A stretch of DNA of 10,606 bases, from positions 1 through 10,606 of the forward strand of contig JAHJXC010000055.1 in the NCBI GenBank assembly GCA_018827845.1, read 5' to 3'. The stretch comes from Patescibacteria group bacterium. GTDB lineage: Bacteria; Patescibacteriota; Minisyncoccia; UBA9983. The stretch's first letter is position 1; each line of letters starts with the position of its first letter. Shown one piece after another: positions 4,026 through 10,606 of the stretch. The position numbers and the translations under genes are program-made. A model generated the notes under the pieces. It made no database searches and was not told the origin of the DNA. It was given only the letters and a program-made list of their open reading frames with translations.

Positions 4026-5921
4026 TTATTGCGTTACTCTACCTTCTTTGTAATTAAACTTCGGGTCATTGCTTAAAATAGTATTTAGGTCTTGTTTTTT
4101 CTCCTCAGCAATTGTTTCAGTAAAGTTGTCTTTCCCTGTCATATTTATATCTGAAACCAGAACAGGCGAACTTCCCGCCTGGCTCAAGCTGGGCATTAAG
4201 GAAATTTGGAAAGAAACTTTTTTGGCCGGCCATAAAATGCCGGTGCCAGCGGATAGACTGTGAATACTCCAAACCACCTCACCTGTTTTTTCATCAAAAG
4301 CAACTTCTTCTCCAGCAGGAGAAACCTTACTCAGCCATCTCGCATATGAAGGAAGTGCTGCTCTTACCTTAACATCAGAAAAGTCATTGGAAGTATTGCC
4401 TATTGACCAAACAATAGTATAAGTTGTCTCGCTCCCAACTTTTGGAGGCATAGGGCCGGTATTTTCAAAATCGCCTGAATAATGCAAGGCCTGGCTTGCC
4501 AACTGAAGAAACGAGGCTACTTTAACGTCTTTTGTAATGGTGTTGGAAATCTCGGTCGCACCCAAACTCTCAGAAACGGTCTTGCCTTTTATTTGAACTT
4601 CTATATTAATAATAAAATTTTTATCATCTACGCTAATAATGGGAAGCGGAGATAGAACAGAAAAACTGAACCTTCCGCTGCCTGTTTCGCCTGGACTGAT
4701 CAAATTGAGCCCTGGCAATCCGGAAGAATTCCAAACCAGTGTTTTGTCAAAAGTTCTATAAGTGCCGTTGCTTACTGAAATAGATTTTTCATTAAGCGTT
4801 ATTCCCTTAATCTTTAATTCCATAACAGCATTAACGATATTGGTCGGCAAATTATTTTTCCAAAATATTTCTCCTTTTACATAATTTCCAGGGGAAACAA
4901 TATTTTTTTCAGTATTCTCGCCGTTCAAAAACAAGGTCAGGTCAAGGAACGGTTTTTTGATGGCAATAGTTTCAGCAGAAGTGCCATAAGAGATAAAAAC
5001 ATTATCTTTATTCATTACCCCTGCTTGGACACGGAATGATTTTTCTTCTAAATCTTGCCCTTCAATTATGCCATACAGGGAAATATTCCTTTGCTGAGTA
5101 GGACCCAGGTCGCCTATTAACCAGGTGTTATTTTTTGTGGTCGGCTCAGGAACAGATTTAGAAAACTGGAAACCCGAAGGATATTCAACCTGTAGAACCA
5201 AATTCCTGATAACATTTTCGGCGTTGGAAACAATGTTTATATCCATTTTCATTTCCTGGCGGGAATTTATTTCTTTTGGCGCAGAAATTAAAATTCCTAC
5301 GGCAGGACGGCTTATCTTTACTGTATATTCTGCGTCTTTGGCAAAAATTGCATTAGAACCTTCAAGCCGATATTCAAGAGTGGTCTTTATATTTTTTTCC
5401 TCATCTTCTTCTCCAAATAAAACAAGGTTTATTGATTTTTTTACTGAGCCACGCAGACCGATTTCTCCCATAGAATATCTTTCTCTAACCAACTCTGTTC
5501 CGTCTTCTGAAAAAGCTCCTTCTGGAAACTCCAATAGCAAACTGGCCATTTCTAAAGGAGTGTCGTTTTTGTTTTCCACAAAAACATCGAGCGTGATTGT
5601 CTCTCCGCCATATGTATGAACAGGTCCTTTTATGTCTATAGCAATATTGCCCGAAGAAATAATATTCAAACCTCTGGTCAGAAAAAATAAAACTGCAATC
5701 ACTGACAAGACGAGAAAAATGATAACAATGATAAAAATTTTTTTCATAGGAAATGGTGATAATTTTTTTTCGATCTCTCCGTAAGAATGTTGCCAGTCAG
5801 TGGGAGGGGATTTAACGCCCCTGTTGAACATTCTTATCCCCCATCTTTTTTTTCTTTCGGAGAAAGATTCGTCTTTTTTATAAAGACGCTCTCTTAGTTT
5901 TTCAAGATTGTCGCTGTCCAT
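4026..5921 (-). CDS. Membrane-anchored surface protein with Ig-like beta-sandwich repeats
   Basis: A 631-residue protein with no assignable enzymatic role. Residues 1-60 are highly charged (many K, R, E) and are predicted to be cytoplasmic. One strong transmembrane helix spans about 61-81 (KIFIIVIIFLVLSVIAVLFF). The remaining 550 residues are predicted outside the membrane. They have alternating beta-strand character resembling DUF11/CARDB-like Ig folds in roughly four blocks (about 92-205, 205-325, 330-465 and 475-605). Recurring features are 'G(D/E)...TYTIVWSIGN'-type strands and phrases such as EYPSGFQF and ALPSYARWLS, typical of such repeats. The C-terminus (SNDPKFNYKEGRVTQ) is polar. It is probably an envelope or adhesion scaffold protein. 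It starts 8 bases after recO with no Shine-Dalgarno, but an extended -10-like TGCTATAAT ends 7 bases before the ATG. Repeat boundaries are estimates from reading the sequence. Confidence 0.85.
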   Translation of the reverse strand: MDSDNLEKLRERLYKKDESFSERKKRWGIRMFNRGVKSPPTDWQHSYGEIEKKLSPFPMKKIFIIVIIFLVLSVIAVLFFLTRGLNIISSGNIAIDIKGPVHTYGGETITLDVFVENKNDTPLEMASLLLEFPEGAFSEDGTELVRERYSMGEIGLRGSVKKSINLVLFGEEDEEKNIKTTLEYRLEGSNAIFAKDAEYTVKISRPAVGILISAPKEINSRQEMKMDINIVSNAENVIRNLVLQVEYPSGFQFSKSVPEPTTKNNTWLIGDLGPTQQRNISLYGIIEGQDLEEKSFRVQAGVMNKDNVFISYGTSAETIAIKKPFLDLTLFLNGENTEKNIVSPGNYVKGEIFWKNNLPTNIVNAVMELKIKGITLNEKSISVSNGTYRTFDKTLVWNSSGLPGLNLISPGETGSGRFSFSVLSPLPIISVDDKNFIINIEVQIKGKTVSESLGATEISNTITKDVKVASFLQLASQALHYSGDFENTGPMPPKVGSETTYTIVWSIGNTSNDFSDVKVRAALPSYARWLSKVSPAGEEVAFDEKTGEVVWSIHSLSAGTGILWPAKKVSFQISLMPSLSQAGSSPVLVSDINMTGKDNFTETIAEEKKQDLNTILSNDPKFNYKEGRVTQ

Positions 5922-7382: not shown

Positions 7383-7410
7383 GCCGACAGATTCTCTGTC
7401 GGCTCTTTTT
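7383..7410 (+). terminator. Rho-independent terminator after the 88-aa gene
   Basis: GCCGACAG (7383-7390), loop ATTCT (7391-7395) and CTGTCGGC (7396-7403) form a perfect 8-bp stem, followed by TCTTTTT up to 7410. The T-run is on the plus-strand side only. In the minus direction the hairpin is followed by mixed sequence, so it is a poor terminator for the converging hydrolase gene. Confidence 0.92.
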
Positions 7411-7981
7411 ATCTGCTGATTTTTAGGAGAGATTCTAGAACTATTGGCAATTCTGTAACACCATCATCTTTTATAAAATGCCCTTTATTTGATTCTATAA
7501 TAATTTCTGCGCCTAATTCTTTTTCAAAAATATCTTTATCGCTCAGTGGCACCCATTCATCATTATCAGAAAAAATTGCAATGAATTTTTTAGATGCATT
7601 TTTTATTTTTTTAAGGTTAATTTTGTTTTCAATCCACGGTTTGGTAATTCCCTTCTCTTTTGGACCCTCTAAATTAACGAGGTGGAACCATCCGGCCACA
7701 AAAACTGCTCCGCCGACTTTTTTATTTTCTAAAGTTTCCAAATAGCGCATAATCGCCTGGCAACCAATACTGTGGCCGACAAAATATGTGTTTTCATCCG
7801 GCTCGCCAACTAAATTTGCAAGAAACGGAATCCATTCTTCAATTTTCGGCTCATCAGTATTCGGCATAGCGGGAACAAAAACTTCGAACCCTCTCTGTTC
7901 CAATTCCTTTTTCAGCCAAGGAAACCATCCTTCTTCAGGATGTCCCTCCCAGCCGTGAATAATAAAAACCCGTTTTTTCAT
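7409..7981 (-). CDS. RBBP9/YdeN-type alpha/beta serine hydrolase
   Basis: A cytoplasmic alpha/beta-hydrolase of 190 residues, the usual size for the RBBP9/YdeN family, whose natural substrates are mostly unknown. The first strand and oxyanion region read VFIIHGWEGHPEEGWFPWL (5-23). The nucleophile elbow is GHSIG with S71. The acid is in SDNDEWVP (D139 or D141), and the catalytic His is H168 in NKGHF. The triad is therefore complete. There is no signal peptide. The ATG overlaps the ileS stop as ATGA (7978-7981), so translation is probably coupled to that of IleRS. No Shine-Dalgarno is needed or seen. The gene ends just past the hairpin that terminates the converging plus-strand gene. Confidence 0.9.
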   Translation of the reverse strand: MKKRVFIIHGWEGHPEEGWFPWLKKELEQRGFEVFVPAMPNTDEPKIEEWIPFLANLVGEPDENTYFVGHSIGCQAIMRYLETLENKKVGGAVFVAGWFHLVNLEGPKEKGITKPWIENKINLKKIKNASKKFIAIFSDNDEWVPLSDKDIFEKELGAEIIIESNKGHFIKDDGVTELPIVLESLLKISR

Positions 7982-10606
7982 TTCTTTATTTCTATTTTAA
8001 AAATTAAATCTTCAACTTTTATTTCTTCTCCGGAATTTTCTGAAAATTTTATCTCTGTTGTGTTAGTAAGTTTTTTGATTTCTGAATCAAATTTTTTGAT
8101 TATTTCTTCGCCATCTTTATTTGTCTCAATAATTAATCCTATTTTATCCTGCGGTTTAAGCCCGGCTTTTTTGCGCAAATCCTGAATATTACGCACCAGT
8201 TCGCGCGCAATGCCTTCGTTTTTTAATTCTTCAGTTATTTCTAAATCAAGTTTATTTTCTTTTTGTCCTATTTTTATTTTTTTAACATTTATCTCATCTT
8301 GCACAATTTGAATAAAATCATCACTAATGCTGTATGTTGTAGCAAAACCGTCTAACACTTGCCGCACTTTCACTCCGTGCTTAGACCTCTCCTCTAGCGC
8401 AATGGAAACAATTTTTCTAGCATCTTCCATATTTTCTAAAATCTTTTCTTCTTCTTTTGATATTTTTTTCACTTCCGGATATTCTTCCAAATGCACGCTT
8501 TCTTTCTTGCCCGCCAAAGCTTCAGCGTCGGCGGGTTCTCCTTTCAATTCCTGATAAACTGCCTCTGAAACAAACGGCGAAAACGGAGCTAGAAGTTTTG
8601 AAGTTTCTATTAAAACATAATGCAAAACATTCACTGCGTTCTCGTAATCTTTTTCGCTTTCCGGGTGCTGAAATCTGGGGCGCGATCTTCTGATATACCA
8701 ATTAGTCAAATCATCAAAAAAATCTATAAAAACTCGCGATGCGCGCGTTAAATCATATTTATCCATGTTTCCTGTTACATCATTAATTATTTTTTGTAAT
8801 TTTATTAAAATCCATCTATCCAATATATTATTTATTTCTTTTGGCTTTTCAATTTTTCCCAAACCAGAATATGTTTTTAGAAAATTCAGCGAATTATAAA
8901 AACTTGTTACAACCTTTCTCATTGACTCCTGAACGCCCTTGTCTGAAAAAAGATAATCCTCGCCAATGGCCGTGGAACTTAATAAATAAAAGCGCAAAGC
9001 ATCGGCGCCGAATTTATCCACAATCTCCTCCGGCTCTATATAATTCCTTAATTTCTTGCTTAATTTCCTGCCCTGCGAATCTAAAATCAAGCCGTTAACA
9101 ACAACATTTTTAAAGGCCTGGTTGTTAAATAAGGCGGTGGATAAAATATGAAGCGTATAAAACCATCCCCTTGTCTGATCCAAACCTTCAGCAATAAAAT
9201 CAGCAGGAAAAGTATCTTCCACGAATTTTTTATTCTCAAAAGGATAATGGTATTGGGCATAAGGCATAGCGCCTGACTCAAACCAGCAGTCAAAAACTTC
9301 TTCCACTCTTTTCATCTTGTCTCCGCATTTTTCACAATCCAAAACAATCTCATCAATATATGGCCGATGCAAATCAATCGGCTTTGAATAAATAATTTTT
9401 ACTGATCCTTTTTTGGGATACCAGCCCTTAAATGAATTGATTAAACTAAGATTTTGCGTTATGCCGTAAAAAATCTGAATAGGATCGCCATGGGAAATAA
9501 TAATAATATTTTTATTGCTATATTTTTTATTTATTTCTTCTAAAAAATTCTCTAGTCTTTCTTTAATTTGATTGCCAGTTTCTATACCATGCTCTGTTTT
9601 TTCTATTCTTGACTCTCTGGGATATTGTCTTTCAAAATCTCTATAAGCTTTTCCCTCCAAATCACCGTAATCCATTTCTCTTAATCGTTCATCAAAAATA
9701 ACTTTTATATCTAATTTCTTAGCAATAATTTCTGCTGTTTCTTTGGTTCTAGTAACAGGAGAACTAAAAATCAAATCAATATTCTCCTTTTTTAAAAACT
9801 CTGCCATTTTTTTGGCCTGCTCTTTCCCTTTTTCTGTTAAATGATATTCTGCTTTTTCCGGCCAAGAACTAAGAATTTCACTAACATTATTCTCCGCCTC
9901 AGCATGTCTGATTAAAAAGATTTTGTTAATTCCATTAAAAGACTGCTTGATTTCATTAAAAGATCCGATGGCTTTAAAATTGCCGCATTTATCGCATTTC
10001 CATATCGGCACTGGCGCTCCCCAAAAACGGTTTCTGGTAAATGCCCAGTCCCGCACGCCCTCCAGCCATTTTCCAAATCTTCCTTCCTTTATATGTTCCG
10101 GCACCCAATTTATTTTTTTATTGTTTTTAATAAGCTGATCCTTAATTTTTTCAACCGCAATATACCAAGTATCCAGCGGGTAATACAGAAGTGGGGAATC
10201 GCATCGCCAGCAGAACGGATAAGTATGGGTTATTGTTTCTGATTTAAAAAGTAAATTTCTTTCTTGAAGATTTTTTACGATTTCTTTATCAGCGTTTTTC
10301 ACAAATGTCCCGGCCCACGGCTTAATTTCTTCCTTGAATTTTCCTTCCTCATCAACAGTCAAAATTACGGGTAAATTATTTTCCTTGCCAACCTTCATAT
10401 CTTCAGCTCCAAAAACAGGAGCAATATGGACAATTCCGGTGCCATCCTCCATAGAAACAAATTCGCCAAGCACAACAAAATGCGCCTTCTTGTCTGGTTT
10501 TATAAAATCATAGATCAGCTCATATTCTAAACCCAATAAATCTTTGCCCTTCATCTCTTTCAAAATTTCATACTCTCCGTCAATAACACTTAATCTTTCT
10601 TTGGCT
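7978..10606 (-). CDS. ileS: Isoleucyl-tRNA synthetase (type 2) with an inserted histidine-phosphatase domain; N-terminus outside window
   Basis: Class I synthetase charging tRNA-Ile. The frame is open to the right edge (reading from about 10605), so some 250-300 N-terminal residues with the HIGH motif are missing. Numbering from the TTG at 10563: the editing-domain end GTGIVHIAPVFGAEDM is at 41-56 and TRNRFWGAPVPIW at 176-188. The first zinc pair is C190/C193. A complete histidine-phosphatase fold follows at about 212-393, then the second zinc pair C410/C413. FDCWFESGAMPYAQYHYPFE (424-443) and DFIAEGLDQTRGWFYT (455-470) are synthetase again. The KMSKS loop appears as KLSKK (500-504), followed by an anticodon-binding domain and a DUF5915-like tail (about 710-861). 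These sequences match the eukaryote-like type 2 IleRS. EPADAEALAGK (676-686) looks like an in-frame palindromic insert. The gene ends in TGA, overlapping the hydrolase ATG. Confidence 0.96.
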   Translation of the reverse strand, partial: AKERLSVIDGEYEILKEMKGKDLLGLEYELIYDFIKPDKKAHFVVLGEFVSMEDGTGIVHIAPVFGAEDMKVGKENNLPVILTVDEEGKFKEEIKPWAGTFVKNADKEIVKNLQERNLLFKSETITHTYPFCWRCDSPLLYYPLDTWYIAVEKIKDQLIKNNKKINWVPEHIKEGRFGKWLEGVRDWAFTRNRFWGAPVPIWKCDKCGNFKAIGSFNEIKQSFNGINKIFLIRHAEAENNVSEILSSWPEKAEYHLTEKGKEQAKKMAEFLKKENIDLIFSSPVTRTKETAEIIAKKLDIKVIFDERLREMDYGDLEGKAYRDFERQYPRESRIEKTEHGIETGNQIKERLENFLEEINKKYSNKNIIIISHGDPIQIFYGITQNLSLINSFKGWYPKKGSVKIIYSKPIDLHRPYIDEIVLDCEKCGDKMKRVEEVFDCWFESGAMPYAQYHYPFENKKFVEDTFPADFIAEGLDQTRGWFYTLHILSTALFNNQAFKNVVVNGLILDSQGRKLSKKLRNYIEPEEIVDKFGADALRFYLLSSTAIGEDYLFSDKGVQESMRKVVTSFYNSLNFLKTYSGLGKIEKPKEINNILDRWILIKLQKIINDVTGNMDKYDLTRASRVFIDFFDDLTNWYIRRSRPRFQHPESEKDYENAVNVLHYVLIETSKLLAPFSPFVSEAVYQELKGEPADAEALAGKKESVHLEEYPEVKKISKEEEKILENMEDARKIVSIALEERSKHGVKVRQVLDGFATTYSISDDFIQIVQDEINVKKIKIGQKENKLDLEITEELKNEGIARELVRNIQDLRKKAGLKPQDKIGLIIETNKDGEEIIKKFDSEIKKLTNTTEIKFSENSGEEIKVEDLIFKIEIKK
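8506..8538 (-). repeat. GC-rich palindrome inserted in frame in ileS
   Basis: CCCGCC (8510-8515) and GGCGGG (8530-8535) are perfect inverted arms around a 14-base centre that contains AAGCTT. On the coding strand the tract 8506-8538 encodes EPADAEALAGK (residues 676-686). It interrupts the otherwise familiar IleRS sequence YQELKG...ESVHLEEYPE near the end of the anticodon-binding domain. The base composition stands out against the AT-rich gene. I infer a small mobile or repeated palindrome; copies elsewhere in the genome cannot be seen here. Confidence 0.6.
9385..9933 (-). other. Histidine-phosphatase (phosphoglycerate-mutase-like) domain inserted in IleRS
   Basis: This segment of ileS encodes about 182 residues that belong to the histidine phosphatase superfamily, not to a synthetase. 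Visible in order: KIFLIRHAEAENN (214-226) with phospho-acceptor H220 and R219; FSSPVTRTKETAEII (266-280) with R272; LREMDYGDLEG (294-304) with acid E296; and IIIISHGDP (353-361) with second His H358. These are all the residues of the phosphate pocket, so the domain should be active. Before it the synthetase reads CDKCG...AIGSFNEIK, and after it PIDLHRPYIDEIVLDCEKCG, both normal IleRS. Hand counts give about 30% GC for 9421-9900, versus about 39-40% on each flank (8941-9180, 10021-10260). Substrate unknown. Confidence 0.92.

Follow-up and report, generated by a model that had tools for sequence, protein, structure and literature searches.

Why would an isoleucyl-tRNA synthetase (IleRS) carry a complete histidine phosphatase (HP) in the middle of its chain? 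The question is raised by the ileS gene of a Patescibacteria group bacterium, located on a contig of 10,606 nucleotides (JAHJXC010000055.1) that was analysed over its whole length and is called the window below. A sequence-only reading of the window had noticed an HP within ileS, and this observation was confirmed by the open frame, by Pfam and by fold comparison. Judging from the sequences, many ultra-small Patescibacteria have an essential IleRS with a complete and apparently working HP built into its middle. This is unusual, in that some three quarters of the informative relatives carry a constrained small-molecule HP within an essential bacterial synthetase, and that such HPs were recruited again elsewhere and in valyl-tRNA synthetase (ValRS). 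It points to a phosphorylated compound tied to isoleucine and valine charging in a large, mostly uncultured bacterial branch.

The phosphatase is part of a continuous ileS gene

The ileS frame (Table 1) has no stop over its 875 codons and continues past the end of the contig. Within this one frame, Pfam recognized tRNA-synt_1 (in two stretches), His_Phos_1, Anticodon_1 and DUF5915, which includes the combination of tRNA-synt_1 and His_Phos_1 for which the sequence-only reading had advised searching. Its claim of a single polypeptide that combines an IleRS with an HP whose active-site signature is complete was borne out.

That reading had also named an assembly chimera as what could undo its claim. 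The window is the whole of contig C91 in a source genome of 558,660 bases in 95 contigs, rated 94.86% complete; the gene's missing 5' (N-terminal) part was located on contig C21, where argS lies upstream of it. The window's protein (P0001) and P0002, a protein from a 3,509-base contig, represent the same gene, and P0002 bridges the C21 and C91 parts with 243/243 and 404/404 identical residues, respectively. Because P0002 spans both parts with full identity, ileS is one uninterrupted gene and a chimera can be dismissed. The relatives, which carry the insert in 37/50 informative cases, exclude a chimera as well.

Comparison with the near-relative P0003 indicated that the source genome has only one IleRS. 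A second, canonical IleRS was not found: besides the pieces on C21 and C91, P0003 had five other matches, only 27–35% identical, which is the level expected for other class I synthetases. The HP inside IleRS is the single PF00300 match of this genome.

Table 1 Features of the fused gene in the window and, in the last row, of locus L079 in the insert-less relative G006
Feature	Position	Strand	Remarks
ileS, type-2 isoleucyl-tRNA synthetase with inserted HP	7978..10605	(-)	875 codons; first 245 residues on another contig
First zinc knuckle C204-x-x-C207, before the insert	9985..9996	(-)	cysteines kept in 66/73 and 63/73 fused proteins
Inserted HP domain	9379..9930	(-)	residues 226-409, fold comparison
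Pfam core His_Phos_1	9442-9921	(-)	residues 229-388; E 4.7e-40; 137.8 bits, cut-off 21.7
Catalytic R233-H234 (RHA)	9904..9909	(-)	invariant in 113/113
Catalytic R286 (TRTKET)	9748..9750	(-)	invariant in 113/113
Acidic catalytic residue E310 (EMDYGDLEG)	9676..9678	(-)	E 109/113, D 4/113
Second catalytic His H372 (SHG)	9490..9492	(-)	invariant in 113/113
Second zinc knuckle C424-x-x-C427, past the insert and the DLHRP motif	9325..9336	(-)	cysteines kept in 66/73 and 66/73; coordinates counted from the frame translation
MazG-like and DUF559-like genes of L079 (G006)	1007-1327 and 4956-5354

The catalytic residues of the insert are under strong constraint

The insert exceeded the gathering score of PF00300 and has both the R-H, R, E, H set and the fold of branch 1 of the HP superfamily, to which it belongs; H234 is presumably the residue that becomes phosphorylated, as in the superfamily at large. 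The motifs listed by the sequence-only reading (RHA, TRTKET, EMDYGDLEG and SHG) are all present, and its H220 is the same catalytic histidine, which is numbered H234 here because the earlier count began at a TTG codon. It had placed the domain at 9385–9933; the domain is indeed there, with limits corrected to 9379–9930 by fold comparison. That reading would have been undermined by a segment unable to adopt a phosphatase fold, yet the insert folds as an HP, and its proposed placement on the zinc arm is right.

Across 113 aligned fused proteins (the 120 listed, minus 7 of at least 1300 residues), R233, H234, R286 and H372 are invariant, and at the fifth position, E310, 109 proteins have E and 4 have D; the mean share of the most frequent residue over the HP is 0.56. 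That the catalytic residues are the most constrained part of the IleRS inserts argues against an HP fold retained solely for tRNA binding or spacing. After dereplication at 98%, the set R-H-R-E/D-H was found in 189/189 inserts at the site occupied in the window (site A), in the first and second copies of tandem inserts (13/13 each), in 20/20 inserts at site C, in 4/4 at site B and in 4/4 labelled A2 (one of which, L036, has an ambiguous border and stands among the site-A copies in the HP tree), as well as in 4/4 HP genes beside ileS. Three further site-A rows were incompletely placed; two of them are complete and one starts in masked letters. Eight HP copies come from ValRS: four are complete and four, of the Berkelbacteria type (P0121–P0124), have Ser for the second His. 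This loss makes a non-catalytic use possible in that branch; for the inserts in general, a purely structural lobe is highly improbable.

The synthetase part is of type 2 and keeps its editing residues

The window's frame, with 245 residues missing at the contig end, scored 577.1 bits with TIGR00392 (cut-off 621.4 bits), and the full-length fused relative L069 scored 789.5 bits. The enzyme was assigned to type 2 by a ranking made on P0003, 84–89% identical to the window's protein, for which Priestia megaterium IleRS2 (PDB 8c8u) and yeast IleRS (9wqs) outranked the type-1 structures. Neither of these two has a phosphatase lobe between the knuckles, and the HP is an extra element of the window's enzyme. 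PMC10485003 and PMC4861432 describe type-2 IleRS with its HxGH and GxHH variants, the former presenting GxHH as an altered motif. The first active-site motif of 73 fused IleRS (alignment A1) reads GxHH in 45, HxGH in 24 and HxG followed by S or T in 3, with a gap in 1. In the source genome this motif is HYGH (N-terminal part of the gene), and the KMSKS motif reads KLSKK (window's frame).

In alignment A1 the editing His and Asp are present in 73/73 proteins and the Thr triplet in 72/73, with a gap in the other one. We take the HIGH-type, KMSKS-type and post-transfer editing residues of this enzyme to have their usual roles. With the editing residues preserved, the HP is no substitute for editing, and the idea that it makes up for a lost editing function was discarded.

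The fusion is widespread in Patescibacteria

A search with the insert region, restricted to proteins about the size of IleRS, retained 173 of 900 candidates at E <= 0.001, and 120/120 of the fused proteins listed match an HP profile. They come mainly from sources with Patescibacterial names (Terrybacteria, Paceibacterota, Moranbacteria, Parcubacteria and others), with one row named Baltobacteraceae (P0109). Where the sources name the proteins, they use 'class I tRNA ligase family protein' or 'isoleucyl-tRNA synthetase', and one JGI name mentions SixA-type and GNAT parts. The sequence-only reading, correct as to the single polypeptide, the absence of a chimera and the zinc arm, had left undecided whether databases contain the fusion; it is now clear that they do. 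No description of an IleRS-HP fusion was found in the literature searched, which left out most subscription journals and bioRxiv. As the databases hold such proteins with domain calls, the fusion is, as far as we searched, undescribed rather than unseen.

In 55 related genomes, 37 have an HP in IleRS at site A (including G007, where only part of the HP precedes the contig end), 13 cover the site without an HP and 5 could not be judged, so that 37/50 informative relatives are fused. A draw of 126 genomes across the phylum gave an HP in a frame of at least 875 codons for 8/8 listed from the window's own class; 11 of the other 118 have an HP in a synthetase frame, which is IleRS in nine and ValRS in three, both being affected in G098. 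Among the best 80 of 594 IleRS loci from a collection of named genomes, 9 have an HP inside IleRS (L115–L121, L123, L155), and their records bear named Patescibacterial lineages or just 'bacterium'. One more locus of this set, L163 from Urinicoccus massiliensis (Bacillota), has an HP gene directly after ileS (9064-9672), which stands among the free-standing HPs, outside the inserts, in the HP tree.

The insert does not match a known housekeeping phosphatase

The closest solved structure to the HP is PspA of Hydrogenobacter thermophilus (4ij5/4ij6), followed by PhoE-like enzymes and Aquifex HFP (9mmh); unlike the window's HP, all of these are free-standing enzymes. The His in the EIDHG motif of PspA is Tyr in the window, and is His in just 1/113 inserts. 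The best-scoring HP model was that of the 2,3-bisphosphoglycerate (2,3-BPG)-dependent phosphoglycerate mutase dPGM_arch (NF038349), with 121.7 bits for a cut-off of 225 bits; the phosphoserine phosphatase PspA (NF045917) gave 103.7 bits (cut-off 350) and the alpha-ribazole phosphatase CobC (TIGR03162) 97.7 bits (cut-off 162.9). The tandem relative L069 reaches 202.2 bits with the last of these models, summed over its two HP copies. With scores below the model cut-offs, all three identities were rejected.

Could the HP nonetheless provide the cell's phosphoglycerate mutase or pyrophosphatase (PPase)? The rank of dPGM_arch would fit this, as would the fact that 10/55 relatives, six of them fused, are without PF01676, and that seven informative relatives are without all three PPase families tested, five of these being fused and one having an HP gene beside ileS. 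Yet the dPGM_arch score is below its cut-off, the window's own genome encodes a 527-codon PF01676 enzyme (the size of a cofactor-independent phosphoglycerate mutase) as well as an H+-PPase, and the fusion is unlinked to PPase absence (Fisher p 1.0). The latter result led us to reject a PPase acting in cis, and a housekeeping replacement is the least probable of all the readings weighed here. Each of the 55 relatives has at most one kind of PPase: 16 carry family I, 28 an H+-PPase and 3 family II, and 8 have none of the three. The fused shares of the informative genomes in these four sets are 10/14, 22/26, 0/3 and 5/7, respectively; the family-II value (Fisher p 0.015) was spotted post hoc and is uncorrected for testing or kinship.

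The HP could also set the rate of isoleucine charging by dephosphorylating the synthetase, a partner protein or a signalling nucleotide. An insert in the zinc module could act from there on the enzyme, and the protein-histidine phosphatase SixA belongs to the HP superfamily. However, the insert scored 44.4 bits against a SixA cut-off of 74.5 and is most like small-molecule phosphatases, which makes control by a phospho-signal unlikely.

Histidine phosphatases were recruited repeatedly into IleRS and ValRS or beside ileS

In IleRS, HPs occur as tandem copies at site A (L069, L070, L123 and others), at a site A2 just beyond the second knuckle (P0137–P0139), at site B, around model position 540, and at site C, around 665–672, after the KMSKS loop. 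ValRS has them at site A in P0121–P0124 and L044 (G057) and, as a tandem pair, in G098 (L067), and at site B in P0168. A tree of the HPs (185 rows, quick method, 96/182 inner branches open) grouped the site-C copies (support 99), the first tandem copies (100), the three A2 copies (98), the second tandem copies together with the ValRS pair of G098 (95), and the ValRS copies of P0121–P0124 with that of L044 (96). At least 15 changes are needed to explain the presence of HP at site A in an IleRS tree (83 rows, insert columns removed, quick method), gains and losses being not separable.

The gene order argS–ileS–recO is found in many loci (e.g. L118, L119, L202, L212, L216, L217, L219). An HP gene lies between argS and ileS in G053 and G027, where it shares 4 and 7 bases, respectively, with the predicted start of ileS, and in G049, where further frames, one of HD type, intervene. 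Three such neighbours would occur by chance with a probability of about 2e-4, a rough figure that is based on a count by eye of 18 or 19 free HP genes and on an assumed 700 genes. In the HP tree, the free HP genes before ileS are placed with the site-A inserts, a placement that lacks starred support; in the IleRS tree, the IleRS of G049 and G027 are sisters of fused lineages (SH-aLRT 100).

The HP genes between argS and ileS are also what one would expect if the insert were an ordinary small-molecule enzyme from the argS–ileS–recO neighbourhood, caught in insertion-tolerant loops and gaining only shared expression or stability. The nearest solved relatives, such as PspA and PhoE, are indeed metabolic, unrelated domains (DUF559 in P0144, Y1_Tnp in P0149) also lie within some IleRS, and 5/13 insert-less relatives manage without an HP. 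On the other hand, the HPs that entered IleRS at its various sites, and those in ValRS, come from distinct groups of the HP tree, and the large site-A inserts in the 55 relatives are HPs only, when chance capture should yield more kinds of neighbours. A captured metabolic phosphatase is nearly as likely as the clean-up role set out below.

A possible clean-up role in cis

Our tentative preference is for a bifunctional enzyme, made of a type-2 IleRS and a predicted catalytically competent HP that forms a separate lobe within the second zinc module and may act in cis as a clean-up phosphohydrolase. The HP would strip phosphate, by the usual phospho-histidine mechanism, from a small molecule arising at, or blocking, isoleucine or valine charging; candidate targets are products, for example AMP, and phosphorylated inhibitors. 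Tethering would hold the HP at the synthetase and match their numbers one to one. The computed basis of this best explanation consists of the continuous gene, its status as sole IleRS, the complete HP fold and signature under strong constraint, the intact editing residues and the repeated recruitment. We infer the action in cis on a phosphorylated product or inhibitor of charging with the same reserve.

Several points weigh against a clean-up role. Its candidate substrates are conjectural. PF00300 is found nowhere in 5/13 insert-less relatives (G006, G013, G034, G036, G040), and the activity is therefore dispensable. Clearance of AMP or the like should concern all synthetases, beyond those for isoleucine and valine. 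The replacement of the second catalytic His by Ser in the four Berkelbacteria-type ValRS inserts is a further difficulty. Finally, the proteins of the conservation analysis were gathered by likeness to HP, and decayed copies may escape such a search; the 37 fused relatives, by contrast, were collected via IleRS and PF00300.

Other added domains and neighbouring genes

Synthetases with added domains are already known as a kind, of which IleRS-HP is a further example. A precedent for an IleRS with an extra catalytic domain is NCBIfam NF040702 (IleRS with N-acetyltransferase), in which the extra domain is GNAT; the window's protein scored 191.9 for a cut-off of 1999, and GNAT is absent from its Pfam result. 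In the relatives, a NUDIX domain lies inside the IleRS of G034 (L078, 220-3780; E 7.4e-24, near residues 216–334), which has no HP, and GNAT occurs within the IleRS P0138. A segment of the G010 IleRS, without Pfam recognition, is 22–23% identical to the RBBP9-like hydrolases encoded beside ileS in the window and in G006. A broader and more speculative idea, which we regard as rather unlikely, is that IleRS and ValRS of Patescibacteria serve as carriers of plug-in catalytic modules (chiefly HP, also NUDIX and GNAT, perhaps a serine hydrolase). These would form, beside editing, a second layer of quality control or self-protection that is directed at phosphates or adducts and deals in cis with side products of branched-chain amino-acid charging or with its natural inhibitors.

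Some IleRS combine several added domains: two HPs and a GNAT in P0138, GNAT and HP in L068 (G098), DUF559 and HP in P0144, and Y1_Tnp and HP in P0149; P0134 also has several. The RBBP9-like serine hydrolase gene of the window (7409-7981, minus strand; PF06821, E 1.4e-23) overlaps the end of ileS by 4 bases, and a gene 72% identical to it comes after ileS in G006. In the same G006 locus (L079), where IleRS has no insert, a MazG-like gene of 107 residues, named by eye and without a Pfam match, directly follows ileS, and argS and ileS are separated by a DUF559-like gene.

Outside IleRS, HPs in frames of more than 400 codons were found in the 55 relatives only in G052 (486 codons) and, below the cut-off, in G022 (465 codons), so that the constrained phosphatase was recruited with a preference for the isoleucine and valine enzymes. 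The G052 frame (L225) joins an HP to what reads as a pyruvate kinase, and L072 (G171) and L074 (G118) likewise read as a hydroxyacid-dehydrogenase-like protein joined to an HP.
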